A stretch of DNA of 34,941 nucleotides, taken from the IMG/VR virus record IMGVR_UViG_3300046534_000580, positions 1 to 34,941 of that record; one strand, given 5' to 3'. Below the pieces are notes generated by a model. That model had not been told where the DNA came from. It saw only the letters and a list, made by a program, of their open reading frames with translations, and ran no database searches. The DNA comes from a virus. Shown here in pieces: positions 1 to 34,941 of this stretch. A program made the translations under genes and the position numbers. Position 1 is the stretch's first letter. Every line of letters begins with the position of its first letter.

Positions 1-55
1 GAAGAAGAAAACCCTGTCGAAGGTGGGGATCTTGATAAGCGAGTTTAGAGGGTAA
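1..55 (+). repeat. Exact 55-bp repeat of 34342-34396
   Basis: The first 55 bases of the window are identical to 34342-34396, the 3' end of a winged-helix gene. Similarity continues more weakly to about position 80. The window therefore begins inside a repeated gene. Confidence 0.95.
2..55 (+). CDS. 3' end of a winged-helix protein (partial)
   Basis: The last 17 codons of a gene whose start lies outside the window. They read KKKTLSKVGILISEFRG and stop at TAA 53-55, identical to the C-terminus of the complete gene at 34133-34396. That gene belongs to a family of small winged-helix-like proteins also found at 548 and 3232. If the genome is circular, this fragment could be the 3' part of the gene that begins at 34858, with the middle missing. 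The function of the family is unknown; DNA binding is inferred. Confidence 0.75.
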   Translation, partial: KKKTLSKVGILISEFRG

Positions 56-73
56 CGGTTGGGTTGTGTGTAG
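53..73 (+). repeat. attC-like half-site, copy A
   Basis: TAACGGTTGGGTTGTGTGTA overlaps the stop codon of the preceding gene fragment. It is close to TAATGGTTTGGCTATGTGTA at 34394 and to the left half of the inverted-repeat site at 2485. No matching right half follows, so it may be a decayed or half site. Confidence 0.5.
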
Positions 74-108
74 TTTTAGAAATCAACAACAAATTAAATA
101 AATAAACG

Positions 109-339
109 ATGAGCAAAAAAGCAGATAAATTTATAGACAAGTACATAGTTGGAAAAGATGATTGGTTGTTAAAAAACAAGGAAGTAATATCTAAATTACT
201 TGATGAGTACGAAACCGAGCAATTAACTATATCCGTTGTTGTGAAATCGTTTTATTGCGGTGCTGAACACAATGGCGGTAGTTTATGTGAAACACAATGT
301 TTGGGATGTGATGCCTTTGATAGAGAGTGTAATAATTAA
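109..339 (+). CDS. Hypothetical 76-aa cysteine-rich protein, cassette-like gene
   Basis: I do not recognise this protein. The N-terminal half is charged and probably helical (KKADKFIDKYIVGKDDW). The C-terminal third holds five cysteines (roughly residues 50, 60, 64, 67 and 74), including CETQC and CLGC, which could bind metal. The gene follows an A-rich leader without a Shine-Dalgarno sequence. It lies between the half-site at 53-73 and a TAACAACC-type repeat at 354, the arrangement also seen around 34440-34772, so it looks like an exchangeable single-gene unit. Its AT-rich codon use differs from the neighbouring winged-helix gene. Confidence 0.65.
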   Translation: MSKKADKFIDKYIVGKDDWLLKNKEVISKLLDEYETEQLTISVVVKSFYCGAEHNGGSLCETQCLGCDAFDRECNN

Positions 340-353
340 CAATAATATGCACT

Positions 354-376
354 ATAACAACCGAATATACACACCA
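354..376 (+). repeat. TAACAACC-type repeat (1 of 3)
   Basis: ATAACAACCGAATATACACA, followed by CCA, recurs with one or two changes at 3157 and 34769. Each copy follows a small cassette-like gene and precedes a gene of the winged-helix family, here by way of the small ORF at 420. Confidence 0.7.
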
Positions 377-424
377 CAACAGCACCGAAAAACAATACCT
401 AACACGAAAAAATACTAAGATGAA
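371..424 (+). repeat. 54-bp leader repeat shared with 34809-34862
   Basis: This segment matches 34809-34862 with a single mismatch at about 399. It forms the A/C-rich leader and first codon of the small ORF at 420 here, and of the winged-helix gene at 34858 in the other copy. The same leader thus drives two different genes. Confidence 0.9.
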
Positions 425-551
425 TAGAGATGTATTACTAAAAATATTACAAGCGGAAACAGATGGCTTTATTGAACAAAGCAGATTAAGAGATGATATT
501 CTTGACGCAATGGAAACAGCTTATTTAAAGGGCTTACGCACTAACCAATGA
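420..551 (+). CDS. Small ORF, 43 aa
   Basis: An unrecognised, probably helical protein starting MNRDVLLKILQAETDGF. It has the conserved leader at 371-424, and its stop overlaps the start of the winged-helix gene at 548 (ATGA). That suggests translational coupling and supports it as real despite its size. In the parallel locus at the right end of the window the leader is joined directly to the winged-helix gene, so this small gene is an insertion there or a loss here. Confidence 0.6.
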   Translation: MNRDVLLKILQAETDGFIEQSRLRDDILDAMETAYLKGLRTNQ

Positions 552-820
552 CACAGAACCAAGACCCAACCGCCTACCGAACCATAATCCAAAACCGAAA
601 GCTCACCCCGATCCAGCGCATTATCTTGATCTACCTTAACACGCTTGAGGATGACTTTCTGGAGGGGAAGCTTAATGATCTCAGCATTAAGTTAGGACTC
701 GGTAAGTCTGCGGTAATAGCTCAGACCCGAACTCTGCATGATATGGGTTACCTTGTACGCGAGAACGTCGGGAAGCCAGGAGAGAGGCACGGAATTAGGT
801 TAAGCGATTTTAGACCGTAA
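548..820 (+). CDS. Small winged-helix-like DNA-binding protein, paralog 1
   Basis: A 90-aa protein, inferred to bind DNA. The segment LTPIQRIILIYLNTL (about residues 18-32) looks like the first helix of a winged helix-turn-helix. LNDLSIKLGLGKSAVIAQTRTLHDMGYL (split here around residue 55) gives the helix-turn-helix and recognition helix, and the C-terminus HGIRLSDFRP the wing. The paralogs at 3232 and 34133 share the N-P/R-x-L-S/T-P start and the I-x-L-S-D/E-F/W end. It is translationally coupled to the small ORF upstream. Plausible roles are a phage regulator or a replication accessory protein. Confidence 0.75.
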   Translation: MTQNQDPTAYRTIIQNRKLTPIQRIILIYLNTLEDDFLEGKLNDLSIKLGLGKSAVIAQTRTLHDMGYLVRENVGKPGERHGIRLSDFRP

Positions 821-1246: not shown

Positions 1247-1402
1247 TTGGCAAACCTATACACCAACATCTTAAACCTAATATTCATCGGCAACAAGCTG
1301 ATAGTATTAATCTTTTTCATCTTAACTTTTTATGTCCAAAAGAGAAAACCGCTTTCGCTTAAACAACTATTTAGCAAAGCAATTAGGAATAGAACCAAAT
1401 AA
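1247..1402 (+). CDS. Possible 51-aa membrane protein overlapping the next gene
   Basis: Reading from TTG 1247 gives 51 codons with a strongly hydrophobic segment (LIVLIFFILTFYV) followed by a basic tail with many K and R. This is the layout of a single-span membrane protein. It overlaps the metallophosphoesterase start by 71 nt in another frame. There is no ATG, and the hydrophobicity could be chance in AT-rich sequence, so I list it only as a possibility. Confidence 0.25.
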   Translation: MANLYTNILNLIFIGNKLIVLIFFILTFYVQKRKPLSLKQLFSKAIRNRTK

Positions 1403-2465
1403 AAGCCAGCGGTACACCTTAACGCCTGAGCAAGAGAAAGAGTACAAAGCTATTAAGGAGCTAAATAATGATTCCGTAGTGGATGAAACCTTGCACCGGG
1501 GGAACTTAAAAAGGAACACTTGGCAGGCCGCTTGGGTAAAAGAGGAGGGCATTTCTGTCCTAGTTAAAAACCCAGACTACAAAGAGGAGACTATCGACTA
1601 CGACACAATCCGCCTAGATATGATTGAGGAGATGAAACAGCTCTCGCCAGTCGTTAAGAGGTACAAGCGCAAGGCAATTACCGACCCGCATTGTTTATTG
1701 CTTGACATTGCAGATTTGCATCTCGGTAAGCTTGCAACGGTAGGAGGTACAGGAAGTTTTTACAATGTAGACGTGGCAATTGAGAGGGCAATAGAAGCGT
1801 CTGAGTCGTTAATAGATGCGTCTAAGCCTTATAACATTGATAAGGTTTTCTTTATTGTTAGCAACGATGTACTGCACACGGATAACACCACGGGCTCAAC
1901 TACGAAAGGTACCAGCCAAGACACAGATGGGATGTGGTACGATAATTTTAAGATTACCCGCATGGTTTATTGTCAGATTATCCAGCGCCTTACTTCTATT
2001 GCACCGGTTCATATAATACATTGTCCATCTAATCACGATTACATGACAGGGTTTATGTTAGCCGATGCTCTTAGCTGCTTCTTTCACGCTAATAAAAACG
2101 TAACTTTTGACGCGAGCAACCGGCATAGAAAATACACCACGTACGGCAAAAATTTACTTGCATTTTCTCACGGTGACGGGGCTAAAGTTGATCAAGTGCC
2201 CTATCTTGCAGCACACGAAGAACCCCAAATGTGGGCAGATACTTATTACCGATATTGTTTCTTACATCACATTCACCACAAAGAAGTATTCAAGTTTCGC
2301 AGCGGCAAGGACTTTATCGGAATGACAATCGAATACCTAAGAAGCCCAAGCGAGGCCGACCAATGGCACGCGGATAAGGGATTTGTAGGCGCTAAGATTG
2401 CGATCGAGTCATTCATTCACCACCCGACTAAGGGACAAGTAGCAAGGCATACGCACAATTTTTAA
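1332..2465 (+). CDS. Calcineurin-like metallophosphoesterase
   Basis: A 377-aa protein with the five metal-binding blocks of calcineurin-type phosphoesterases in order: D-x-H in DIADLHLGK (D128, H130), SNDVLHTDN (about D179, standing in for the usual GD), SNHDY (N234 H235 D236), SHGDG (about H280) and HHIHH (about 313-317). These ligate two divalent metals and cleave phosphoester bonds. The first 120 residues form a charged extension that I do not recognise. The intact motifs suggest an active enzyme. The substrate is unknown; in phages such proteins have been linked to DNA end processing or nucleotide metabolism. ATG 1332 follows an AT-rich leader, and an attC-like site begins 20 nt after the stop. 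Confidence 0.85.
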   Translation: MSKRENRFRLNNYLAKQLGIEPNKSQRYTLTPEQEKEYKAIKELNNDSVVDETLHRGNLKRNTWQAAWVKEEGISVLVKNPDYKEETIDYDTIRLDMIEEMKQLSPVVKRYKRKAITDPHCLLLDIADLHLGKLATVGGTGSFYNVDVAIERAIEASESLIDASKPYNIDKVFFIVSNDVLHTDNTTGSTTKGTSQDTDGMWYDNFKITRMVYCQIIQRLTSIAPVHIIHCPSNHDYMTGFMLADALSCFFHANKNVTFDASNRHRKYTTYGKNLLAFSHGDGAKVDQVPYLAAHEEPQMWADTYYRYCFLHHIHHKEVFKFRSGKDFIGMTIEYLRSPSEADQWHADKGFVGAKIAIESFIHHPTKGQVARHTHNF

Positions 2466-2484
2466 AGAGTATAAATAATCATAC

Positions 2485-2575
2485 ATAACGGTTTGGCTAT
2501 GTTTTGAAGCCGACAACGGAAAAATTAAATTGAAATACAAATCTTACATAGGCTTTTAAATATAGCCCGTGTTAT
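2485..2575 (+). repeat. attC-like inverted-repeat site B
   Basis: ATAAC (2485-2489) pairs with GTTAT (2571-2575), and GGCTAT (2495-2500) pairs with ATAGCC (2562-2567). The spacers are 5 nt on the left and 3 nt on the right, and the loop is about 61 nt. This two-armed layout, with TAAC and GTTA at the outer ends, is how integron attC sites are built. The site at 2812 has the same left and right spacing. Confidence 0.6.
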
Positions 2576-2586
2576 AACCTTTTATT

Positions 2587-2805
2587 ATGGATAGTAACGA
2601 AATATTTGATAAATACCTAGAGAACAAATGCCCTGTGTGCGACAGTGAGAAAGATAGTGATGATTTTGTAGCACACACTGAACACGGAGGGAAATTAATG
2701 GCTAAAAACTTTACGTGTATGAAGTGCGGGAGCAGTTACGTTGTGGGCTACAACAGACGAAGTATGCCAATAGACAGCGAAATAACCTACAAAGGTAAAA
2801 CCTAA
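2587..2805 (+). CDS. Small zinc-ribbon protein in a cassette-like unit
   Basis: A 72-aa protein with two CxxC pairs, CPVC (C15, C18) and CMKC (C44, C47), separated by 25 residues. This is the geometry of a zinc ribbon, so it probably binds one zinc and perhaps nucleic acid or another protein. No catalytic domain is visible. The gene starts 12 nt after the right arm of site B and ends 7 nt before the left arm of site C, so it fills the space between two attC-like sites, as a gene cassette does. Confidence 0.75.
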   Translation: MDSNEIFDKYLENKCPVCDSEKDSDDFVAHTEHGGKLMAKNFTCMKCGSSYVVGYNRRSMPIDSEITYKGKT

Positions 2806-2811
2806 TTGGTT

Positions 2812-2874
2812 ATAACGTTGAGGCTATGATTTGGAATTTGAGGAACGAAAATTATTAATTATAGGCTGTGTTAT
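2812..2874 (+). repeat. attC-like inverted-repeat site C
   Basis: ATAAC (2812-2816) pairs with GTTAT (2870-2874). GGCTAT (2822-2827) faces ATAGGC (2861-2866), a partly mismatched inner arm. The spacers are again 5 and 3 nt. The right arm region reads GCTGTGTTATGCACAG, itself a small hairpin. The element follows the stop of one small gene and precedes another. Confidence 0.55.
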
Positions 2875-2899
2875 GCACAGTCTTTTAAAAGGAAAAACT

Positions 2900-3160
2900 A
2901 TGTTGATAAAAGTAAAAGACAAAAAAACAGGGGTTATTTATTCTACAAATATGATGGATGGAAATAAACACTCTATTTTAGAAATGAACTTTTGTACAAG
3001 CTACACACAAGTAACAGTACAAGACGAAATTGAAGTTGATGGTAAAACAAAATACCCAACTCACGACATTATACTACCACCATTTGGAACTACACCTAAT
3101 TGGGTAGACTTAATTGCTACCCAAGATGATAACGAAGGTGTCTGGATTGATTGTGCATAA
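2900..3160 (+). CDS. Hypothetical 86-aa protein in a cassette-like unit
   Basis: I do not recognise this protein. It looks like a small beta-rich domain (MLIKVKDKKTGVIYSTN at the start, VQDEIEVDGKTKYPTHDI in the middle) with an acidic end. I chose ATG 2900, after AAGGAAAAACT. The upstream ATG 2873 and TTG 2831 lie inside the attC-like site. The stop codon is embedded in the TAACAACC-type repeat at 3157, so the gene fills its unit from site to site. Confidence 0.65.
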   Translation: MLIKVKDKKTGVIYSTNMMDGNKHSILEMNFCTSYTQVTVQDEIEVDGKTKYPTHDIILPPFGTTPNWVDLIATQDDNEGVWIDCA

Positions 3161-3179
3161 CAACCAAATATACACACCA
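3157..3179 (+). repeat. TAACAACC-type repeat (2 of 3)
   Basis: ATAACAACCAAATATACACA overlaps the stop codon of the preceding cassette-like gene and precedes the winged-helix gene at 3232. Together with ATAAC at 2485 and 2812 it gives three sites about 330-345 nt apart with one gene in each interval. Confidence 0.7.
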
Positions 3180-3231: not shown

Positions 3232-3474
3232 ATGGAAGCAATCCAGAACATCACAACGAACCCAGACCTCTCACCAATTGACAAAGTAATCCTCTGCTAC
3301 TTAAACAGCTTAGGGGTGCAGGAATTAGAGACAACGCTAAAGGAATTAAGCCACGAAATCAATATTGTTGAAACTACCCTATACCAGAACATTTACCACA
3401 TGCAGAAACGCGGTTACCTGGTTTTCGATAATGTCCACGGAGCCGGAATTATTTTAAGTGATTGGGAAACGTAA
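3232..3474 (+). CDS. Small winged-helix-like DNA-binding protein, paralog 2
   Basis: An 80-aa paralog of the gene at 548: NPDLSPIDKVILCYLNSL aligns with NRKLTPIQRIILIYLNTL, and the C-terminus GAGIILSDWET with HGIRLSDFRP. The middle (LKELSHEINIVETTLYQNIYHM) is the predicted helix-turn-helix. It has an A/C-rich leader of about 70 nt after the TAACAACC-type repeat. It is the last gene before the regulatory stretch at 3475-3729, so a role in controlling that switch is attractive but unproven. Confidence 0.75.
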   Translation: MEAIQNITTNPDLSPIDKVILCYLNSLGVQELETTLKELSHEINIVETTLYQNIYHMQKRGYLVFDNVHGAGIILSDWET

Positions 3475-33782: not shown

Positions 33783-34100
33783 ATGAATAAATCAGATAGT
33801 AAAAAAACAGAAACCGAGCAATGCACTATACCAAGTGTTATAATTTCGGCTTTTTCTTGTAGATATACAGGAGTAAGGGACAGTAAGGGAAACAAAATAA
33901 ATGAAAGTGATTTTATTGAAGACGCTTTAAACACTGGAAGAATTGGGCAGGTGAAATACGGGTTGTATTACAATTTTTTTGATAGAAAAGAAGTAAAAGA
34001 GTTTGGGGGTCACGTAGGGTTTTACGTTGATTTTGAAGAAGAAAAAACAAGGAAAGATTTGTATTATTGGGCTAAAAATTCAAAAGTAGTTCCTTTTTAG
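33783..34100 (+). CDS. YopX-like phage protein, 105 aa
   Basis: The central phrase YTGVRDSKGNKINESDFIED then GRIGQVKYGLYYNFF follows the YopX family pattern (TG-x-x-D-x-x-G-x-x-I-x-E-x-D, then G-x-V-x-[FY]) found in many phages and prophages. Function of YopX-like proteins is unknown. AT-rich, with its own promoter; it precedes the winged-helix gene by a short gap, so it could co-transcribe the wHTH/cassette block. Confidence 0.7.
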   Translation: MNKSDSKKTETEQCTIPSVIISAFSCRYTGVRDSKGNKINESDFIEDALNTGRIGQVKYGLYYNFFDRKEVKEFGGHVGFYVDFEEEKTRKDLYYWAKNSKVVPF

Positions 34101-34132
34101 TGCTAAATTATAACACCCTTAAAAACTCCCCC

Positions 34133-34396
34133 ATGCAAAACCCGACACAATCCCTCGCCACGATCTTAAACATCCTAGCGAACCCAGACCTCACCCGAAC
34201 CCAATCGGCTTTATTAATCCACTTACACGCTCAGCCCCTTGACGAGGTTATTACTAACTACACGATACTAGGCGAGGACACAAGTCTAAACGAGTACACG
34301 GTCAAGCTTGCTGTGCGCGAGTTGGTGCGGTTAAAGTACATGAAGAAGAAAACCCTGTCGAAGGTGGGGATCTTGATAAGCGAGTTTAGAGGGTAA
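34133..34396 (+). CDS. Small winged-helix-like DNA-binding protein, paralog 3
   Basis: An 87-aa paralog of the genes at 548 and 3232: ILANPDLTRTQSALLIHLHA aligns with the first helix, EDTSLNEYTVKLAVRELVRL is the predicted helix-turn-helix, and the end VGILISEFRG is the wing. I chose ATG 34133; GTG 34100 would add 11 residues. The last 55 bases are identical to the first 55 of the window. Stop TAA overlaps the half-site TAATGGTTTGG. Confidence 0.75.
   Translation: MQNPTQSLATILNILANPDLTRTQSALLIHLHAQPLDEVITNYTILGEDTSLNEYTVKLAVRELVRLKYMKKKTLSKVGILISEFRG
34342..34396 (+). repeat. Exact 55-bp repeat of 1-55
   Basis: Identical to the first 55 bases of the window. It is the 3' end of this winged-helix gene. 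Confidence 0.95.
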
Positions 34397-34414
34397 TGGT
34401 TTGGCTATGTGTAG
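34394..34414 (+). repeat. attC-like half-site, copy D
   Basis: TAATGGTTTGGCTATGTGTA has the same outer TAA(C/T)G and inner GGCTATG as the left half of site B (2485). No right half is seen before the gene at 34440. Confidence 0.5.
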
Positions 34415-34439
34415 TTGCGGAATTAAAAACAAAAAACAA

Positions 34440-34772
34440 ATGATAAGCAAGAACCAATATTTAAAAGCACTCAACACTGTAAAAGAGTACAAAAAGCAAT
34501 TGCGTATAGGTGTTGTTAGCCGTTCGTTTTCTGAGGATGACTTATGGATATTAGATGGAACAATAGCTGTACCATCATTAACAATGGATTTAGTAGATGA
34601 AGATTATGCTAGTAAGATCGAATCAGATTTAGAAGAAAAAGGATATAGTGTTGATTATGTATCATTAGATGATATGGGGCACATCTCAGTAAAATTTTAC
34701 GGTGGTAGATATTCTGTTACTATATCTGAAAAGCACATAGAAGATATGTTAGCTATTTTAAATGACGCCTAA
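34440..34772 (+). CDS. Cassette-like hypothetical protein, 110 aa
   Basis: ATG 34440 (MISKNQYLKALNTVKEYKKQ) follows CAAAAAACAA; the upstream TTG 34401 lies in the half-site region. The C-terminal half is acidic, with EDYASKIESDLEEKGYSVDY and a beta end (HISVKFYGGRYSVTISEKH). Unrecognised. The gene fills the space between half-site D and the third TAACAACC-type repeat (34769), which overlaps its stop. AT-rich versus the flanking winged-helix genes. Confidence 0.65.
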   Translation: MISKNQYLKALNTVKEYKKQLRIGVVSRSFSEDDLWILDGTIAVPSLTMDLVDEDYASKIESDLEEKGYSVDYVSLDDMGHISVKFYGGRYSVTISEKHIEDMLAILNDA

Positions 34773-34791
34773 CAACCAAATATACAGACCA
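34769..34791 (+). repeat. TAACAACC-type repeat (3 of 3)
   Basis: CTAACAACCAAATATACAGA, then CCACAA. It overlaps the stop of the cassette-like gene and precedes the leader of the winged-helix gene at 34858. Confidence 0.7.
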
Positions 34792-34808
34792 CAATAAACC
34801 AAGCACAA

Positions 34809-34862
34809 ACACCACAACAGCACCGAAAAACAATACTTAACACGAAAAAATACTAAGATGAA
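34809..34862 (+). repeat. 54-bp leader repeat shared with 371-424
   Basis: Matches 371-424 with one mismatch; here it leads into the winged-helix gene at 34858. Confidence 0.9.
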
Positions 34863-34941
34863 CCAAGACCCAACCGCCTACCGAACTATAATACAAAACC
34901 GAAAGCTCACCCCGATCCAGCGCATTATCTTGATCTACCTT
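34858..34941 (+). CDS. 5' end of a winged-helix protein (partial), paralog 4
   Basis: Twenty-eight codons starting MNQDPTAYRTIIQNRKLTPI, almost identical to residues 4-30 of the gene at 548 (which reads DPTAYRTIIQNRKLTPIQRI). The last 48 bases (34894-34941) match 590-637 exactly. The gene is cut off by the window end. If the genome is circular, its 3' end could be the fragment at 2-55. Confidence 0.8.
   Translation, partial: MNQDPTAYRTIIQNRKLTPIQRIILIYL

Follow-up and report, generated by a model that had tools for sequence, protein, structure and literature searches.

In the textbook integron, a cassette consists of a gene followed by its attC site and is usually expressed from an outside promoter. 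When such a cassette forms a circle, both ends of the one gene pair with each other. T4-type phages carry "mobile regulatory cassettes", each made up of a promoter and a terminator-like stem-loop and not known to have R and L boxes, own-end pairing or translated arms; like the elements described below, these are stem-loops located between small accessory genes and are tied to gene shuffling. The T4-type elements are cited in PMC4503421, among other papers. CALINs (at least two attC sites with no integrase nearby) have been published for phages, including the virulent flavobacterium phage P12002L of Polaribacter (Qi et al. 2023, Front Microbiol 14:1091391, PMC9892861), and IntI1 recombined one of the two P12002L attC sites tested (PMC9892861). 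The locus analyzed here is likewise an attC array without an integrase in a phage. Arrays of this kind are already known, and what goes beyond them is the inverted orientation of the sites and the existence of sites that are translated. Systematic antiparallelism of attC and gene, or start codons within attC, are absent from the main text of PMC9892861, and no report of either was found in the text of the openly accessible papers searched.

The stretch of DNA examined (34,941 nucleotides, positions 1 to 34,941 of IMG/VR virus record IMGVR_UViG_3300046534_000580; hereafter the window) contains terminase and portal genes, which identifies its source as a tailed phage. The best-scoring phage records for its exonuclease include Flavobacterium and Elizabethkingia phages (35-42% identity), so that a flavobacterial host is likely. 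The first-pass annotation had proposed, from the letters alone, that two integron attC-like sites bound single-gene cassettes in this phage. The outer and inner arms, with their 5-nt and 3-nt spacers, lie exactly where it had placed them, and each interval holds one small gene, both in plus orientation (Table 1). On the minus strand, the R boxes read ATAACACG...AACCGTTAT at site 1 and ATAACACA...CAACGTTAT at site 2, and both pairs fit RYYYAAC...GTTRRRY.

Table 1. Features of the cassette loci in the window (rc, reverse complement).
Feature	Position	Strand	Details
Degenerate translated-type attC	53..241	-	..ETEQLTISVV↓VKSF; assigned by eye, weaker than the others
76-aa gene starting inside attC 53-241	109..339	+	
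Array-end motif, copy 2	356..376	-	follows the left-end cassette of the window
Phage exonuclease (phrog_704), left flank	1332..2465	+	query for finding relatives
attC site 1	2483..2577	- (antiparallel to genes)	core AAC 2487-2489...GTT 2571-2573; model R1
Outer arms of site 1			ATAAC 2485-2489 / GTTAT 2571-2575
Predicted mobile unit 1 (attC 1 + body 1)	about 2489-2815		
Cassette body 1	2571..2816	+	ends GTTATAACCTTTTA / TAATTGGTTATAAC, complementary 12/14
Small Cys-rich protein, 72 aa	2587..2805	+	weak zinc-ribbon/HNH-like profile
attC site 2	2810..2876	-	core AAC 2814-2816...GTT 2870-2872; model R1
Outer arms of site 2			ATAAC 2812-2816 / GTTAT 2870-2874
Inner arms of both sites			GGCTAT / ATAGCC or ATAGGC
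Predicted mobile unit 2 (attC 2 + body 2)	about 2816-3160		
Cassette body 2	2870..3161	+	ends GTTATGCACAGTCT / rc GTTATGCACAATCA, 12/14
Protein of unknown function, 86 aa	2900..3160	+	
Array-end motif, copy 1	3159..3179	-	minus-strand sequence TGGTGTGTATATTTGGTTGTT
Small winged-helix-like protein, right flank	3232..3474	+	
Degenerate translated-type attC	34394..34518	-	far arm GCAATTGCGTATAGGTGTTGTTAGC in frame, ..KKQLRIGV↓VSRSF; R'' TAAT, not TAAC
Gene starting inside attC 34394-34518	34440..34772	+	alternative in-frame ATG 34407; body ends 10/14
Array-end motif, copy 3	34771..34791	-	follows the right-end cassette of the window

A covariance model (R1) was built from 11 attC sites of other phages, with the window excluded. 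It recovered site 1 at 77.1 bits (E = 4.1e-15) and site 2 at 36.6 bits (E = 6.9e-6), both on the minus strand; in the rest of the window the next match had E = 5.6 and nothing else fell below E 5. The Rfam gathering search of the window gave no matches. Stem sites combined with own-end complementarity of at least 12/14 occurred twice in the real window and in none of 100 dinucleotide-preserving shuffled windows. The attC-type geometry is thus real and well beyond what chance would give. A scan for attC by structure alone, allowing loops of at most 260 nt, yielded 294 candidates against 159 in shuffled sequence, too many false positives to be used alone, and was applied solely in combination with own-end pairing; a small structural scan of phage TJE1 found no sites at the settings used. 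Taken alone, the folding preference of the single sites over shuffled sequence was weak at site 1 (plus strand z = -0.85, minus strand z = -0.03) and moderate at site 2 (z = -2.97 and -1.80, respectively), and so was not decisive.

In an RNAalifold alignment of the 11 sites, compensatory changes were found in 10 of 14 pairs, with the inner L''/L' stem kept apart from R by unpaired spacers and the R boxes TAAC/GTTA invariant at pairs 5-7. No single bulged base was seen; a constant L-stem mismatch and a mismatch at position 11 of the R arm, which is G.T on the coding strand, may mark the strand instead.

The two ends of each cassette body were compared by pairing the first 14 bases after the cut with the last 14 before it, and both window cassettes reached 12/14. 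Among 46 phage cassettes, positions 1-9 were paired nearly always, position 11 never formed a Watson-Crick pair, and positions 12-14 were paired again. In the 35 sites tested, the mean match was 11.5/14 for a cassette's own ends, compared to 8.4/14 for the ends of other cassettes. An exonuclease match listed among the cassettes (L013) was recognized as a false positive and removed. The two AAC-to-AAC intervals delimited in the first-pass annotation are the correct units. No relative of body 1 or its 72-aa product was found in phage records or viral contig collections. The 86-aa protein shares 59% identity with a relative from another phage (L141), which is also bounded by attC sites and has different neighbors. 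L141 additionally carries, at 505-948, a different long attC-like site (GGGCGGTTGGCGCAGTGCG / GCATTGCGCCAACCGCC), whose loop holds a small ORF reading through R' (MTDLQKEFEATGYTS..LALRQPPVIFSF).

Gain or loss of these units in related phages had been named as a check, and such variation was found. In three relatives (L006-L008) the place is empty, the winged-helix gene following the exonuclease after 17 bases. The place is occupied in L004 by two other genes together with an attC of this type, and in L005 by one gene without an attC. This bears on the possibility that the hairpins are attenuators, terminators or 5' leaders peculiar to phages, which stand at the starts of genes and play no part in recombination. 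The elements do lie between genes, and it is the coding strand, hence the mRNA, that folds best. Gene content at these boundaries nevertheless varies between relatives, the own-end pairing links opposite sides of a gene that are never adjacent in the array, and the R boxes are unchanged at pairs 5-7; we regard a purely regulatory role as very improbable.

The integron reading held in that attC sites delimit cassettes of one gene each in this tailed phage, but the sites run antiparallel to the genes. In phage contigs, model R1 matched both window sites and 76 further ones at E <= 0.01. An adjacent gene could be assigned for 73 of these 78 matches, and the model strand was antiparallel to it at 70 of the 73. 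On the gene strand of the phage cassettes (n = 46), the base after AAC is G in 43 and the base before GTT is T in 44, while arrays adjacent to an integrase have A after AAC and C before GTT (28/28 each). The phage box contexts are therefore the reverse complement of the integrase-adjacent ones, which points to the opposite strand for the phage sites. Own-end mismatches, scored along the gene strand, favor G.T over A.C in the phages (39 vs 3) and are mostly A.C in bacterial arrays (3 G.T vs 12 A.C), and the coding strand is the better-folding one in 43 of the 46 phage cassettes. In the canonical arrangement attC lies 3' of its gene and parallel to it; in the phages it lies 5' of the gene and antiparallel.

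The ends of the arrays differ from the canonical arrangement as well. The first-pass annotation had the second interval closed by a further ATAAC. This sequence is present at 3157-3161, but it is part of a 21-nt motif, AACAACCRAATATACANACCA, located at the end of the array. The window holds three copies of the motif (at 356, 3159 and 34771), each closing a cassette array on its 3' side, and none was found in 100 shuffles. The different array of L004 ends at the same motif. We consider it a candidate attI-like insertion site on the minus strand.

These data were weighed against an ordinary CALIN, in which each gene would travel with the attC behind it and be cut at G↓TT, with a first site that is a remnant or attI-like and a final attC that has decayed. 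To the eye, the order R''...R' along the genes looks canonical, the gene starts lie shortly after G↓TT, and shared bodies likewise begin at G↓TT. Against this, the box contexts, the mismatch types and the model and folding strands all indicate the opposite strand, the last genes of the window and L004 arrays have no attC behind them and the same motif instead, and the 3' attC differs in all four groups of shared bodies. Assignment of each attC to the preceding gene, our first idea, was dropped after the comparisons of shared bodies, mismatches, array ends and box contexts, and we now hold the canonical arrangement to be unlikely. Box contexts, mismatch types, folding and model strands, and array ends together argue for assigning each attC to the gene that follows it, with the cut expected at TAA↓C, at the stop codon of that gene. 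The mobile unit is thus probably an attC with its downstream gene, rather than a gene with the attC that comes after.

The two ends of the window (1-640 and 34340-34941) represent the same locus with different intervening genes and cassettes. They match at 1-75 and 34341-34415 (95%), 371-424 and 34808-34861 (98%), and 556-637 and 34859-34940 (98%). The corresponding locus of L005 has no cassette. On the simplest reading, the genome is circularly permuted and the two end cassettes are variants within the population; the contig probably closes into a circle, the source population being polymorphic at this locus. The two may instead be tandem copies. Winged-helix paralogues are encoded at 421-820, 3232-3474, 34100-34396 and 34859-34941 of the window and also in L004-L006, and each adjoins a place of accessory gene turnover.

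The first-pass annotation saw no integron integrase in the window, and the record indeed contains no TIGR02249 match above the cut-off and no intI. The locus, having two attC sites and no integrase nearby, is a CALIN and not a complete integron, which has an adjacent intI and attI. TIGR02249 did not exceed its cut-off in any of the 48 records with such arrays that were searched. Only the curated cut-off was used, since at E <= 1e-3 the profile matches other tyrosine recombinases in 14/14 control genomes. With this cut-off, 105 of the 394 genomes sampled from one bacterial phylum had an integrase and none of the 14 controls did; several of the integrase-positive genomes carry classical arrays (L133, L134, L138). 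The phylum sampled is that of the metagenome-assembled genome (MAG) behind contig L062, which we infer to be Bacteroidota. A 370-aa recombinase of this MAG, present as separate pieces below the TIGR02249 cut-off, was not counted.

The impression that intergenic sequences of this kind occur in flavobacterial chromosomes found no support with the closely related string tested. This string, AACGGTTTGGCTATGTGTAGTGCC, the exact 24-base arm of the translated type (see below) and close to TATGTGTAGTTGCGG of the first-pass annotation, matched once in the 257 Gb of bacterial and archaeal sequence searched, in a contig that itself belongs to a phage. The sole GTDB contig with this arm (L062 / G022:C87; L143, L144) is filed under bacterial MAG M1805; it encodes a terminase, portal, major head protein and Erf-like protein, contains a mixed cassette array, and is thus a phage. 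Apart from this phage contig binned with the MAG, none of the bacterial contigs in the 394 genomes showed the short phage-type pattern. With the arm found only in a phage contig and the integrases in bacterial genomes, the sites look phage-specific and the enzyme would be the host's; the recombinase is presumably a host IntI.

Chromosomal integrons with TIGR02249 integrases (L128, L133, L134, L135, L138) share RYYYAAC/GTTRRRY boxes, single-gene cassettes and own-end complementarity with the phage arrays. They differ in that their genes are parallel to attC and start about 20-30 nt after G↓TT, with a divergent integrase, in that their L boxes (GCGTTTCAAGCGG/CCGCTTAAACGC) are unlike those of the phage type, and in that own-end pairing extends over about 11 nt without the re-pairing at positions 12-14. 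Integrase-adjacent bacterial attC sites matched model R1 weakly (E 0.01-0.03). In P12002L (L142), the model identified sites at 38032-38093, 38876-38939 and 39119-39248 on the plus strand, where the genes are on the minus strand; these sites are probably the published CALIN. They adjoin two minus-strand genes, one for Mom-like modification and the other for a DNA methyltransferase, in the same antiparallel layout.

A second class of attC site, overlooked in the first-pass annotation, is present in two degenerate copies at the window's ends (Table 1). Neither is found by model R1, and the body ends of the left copy are not clearly complementary. The string AACGGTTTGGCTATGTGTAG from the window's ends occurs in 28 viral contigs, and these contigs together with a scan for the far arm provided 37 distinct sites, including one degenerate copy from the window. 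In the 37 sites the start codon lies inside the attC, mostly 65 nt into it and preceded by an A-rich stretch, and the far arm reads in frame as protein (..KALHIGGV). In 37/37 sites the R' box supplies an in-frame Val codon at the crossover G↓TT, and all distances from ATG to GTT are multiples of 3. The pairs of the L arm are all Watson-Crick or G.T in 36 of the 37 sites, with two constant G.T positions.

The leaders thus encoded, such as MSKEQNLEDKDKALHIGGV, MDNLEIFDKNGKALHIADV and MKTNIVGTPKGIGKEALHIGGV, precede unrelated bodies. In 593 pairs with unrelated bodies, identity was 76% over the 30 bases before the cut, compared to 32% from the 12th base after it. Conversely, one body may follow different leaders: the bodies of L044 and L068 are nearly identical and those of L042 and L070 are shared at lower identity, and in both pairs the 3' identity ends at TAA(C/T). 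No ATG is present in the first 20 codons of 24 of 35 bodies. In L063, L065 and L087 the leader and body are kept while the first attC arm is missing, as expected if translation needs the leader. The leaders are presumably translated in vivo. In these three contigs a tRNA-like sequence stands directly before the leader-body gene (VSVSLP body). In L049, L056 and L058 a tRNA-like gene, rather than a protein gene, lies within about 110 bases after the arm AACGGTTTGGCTATGTGTAG (at reverse-strand position 345 in L049) and may represent a tRNA cassette.

Swaps of leader and body require breakpoints at both R' and R'', for which a single cut per attC does not account. Breakpoints at both arms would follow from homologous or annealing recombination between short conserved linkers, as proposed for the T4-type elements, the hairpins then being regulatory or transcriptional. 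In the translated type the two arms, whose conservation exceeds 20 nt, lie on either side of the leader that is swapped, and one phage with such an array encodes an Erf-like annealing protein. This mechanism does not, however, predict the 14-nt complementarity of each body's own ends with its fixed mismatch at position 11, the compensatory changes within canonical R and L box geometry, or the equal end-pairing in integrase-adjacent arrays. As an explanation of the arrays as a whole it therefore seems unlikely to us, although some leader swaps may arise, alongside integrase-driven exchange, from recombination within the conserved arms, perhaps carried out by annealing proteins of the phages.

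On these comparisons, we consider it likely that the window carries a two-cassette inverted CALIN of a probably flavobacterial tailed phage, moved by an integrase acting in trans, and that a second class of sites provides translated leaders. In the proposed mechanism, a cassette unit would comprise the attC hairpin and then the gene, ending with its stop codon TAA inside the R box TAAC. The inverted attC would form the 5' end of the gene, and the folded, recombining strand would be the coding strand. An integron integrase supplied in trans, most likely encoded by the host, would fold this strand and cut at TAA↓C, so that "attC plus downstream gene" could travel between phage genomes. In the second class, the attC would contribute both the codon for initiation and an N-terminal leader, and the crossover G↓TT falls in frame as a Val codon. 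Whether phages of Bacteroidota maintain a private pool of inverted cassettes, in which attC is the 5' gene part that gives the ribosome start, start codon and leader, and in which leaders and bodies recombine, is a broader proposal that we find about evenly balanced.

A recombination site that stands before its gene, is reversed, and in one class is read as protein would couple cassette exchange to the start of translation. Where the attC holds the start codon and the first amino acids, exchange of cassettes would also swap protein N-termini. This would offer phages a direct route to plug in small accessory genes that are translated at once. It also makes two questions testable: which integrase moves the phage cassettes, and which strand is used when attC is inverted relative to the gene. 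If the proposed scheme is true, site-specific recombination assembles proteins from interchangeable leaders and bodies, besides exchanging whole genes.
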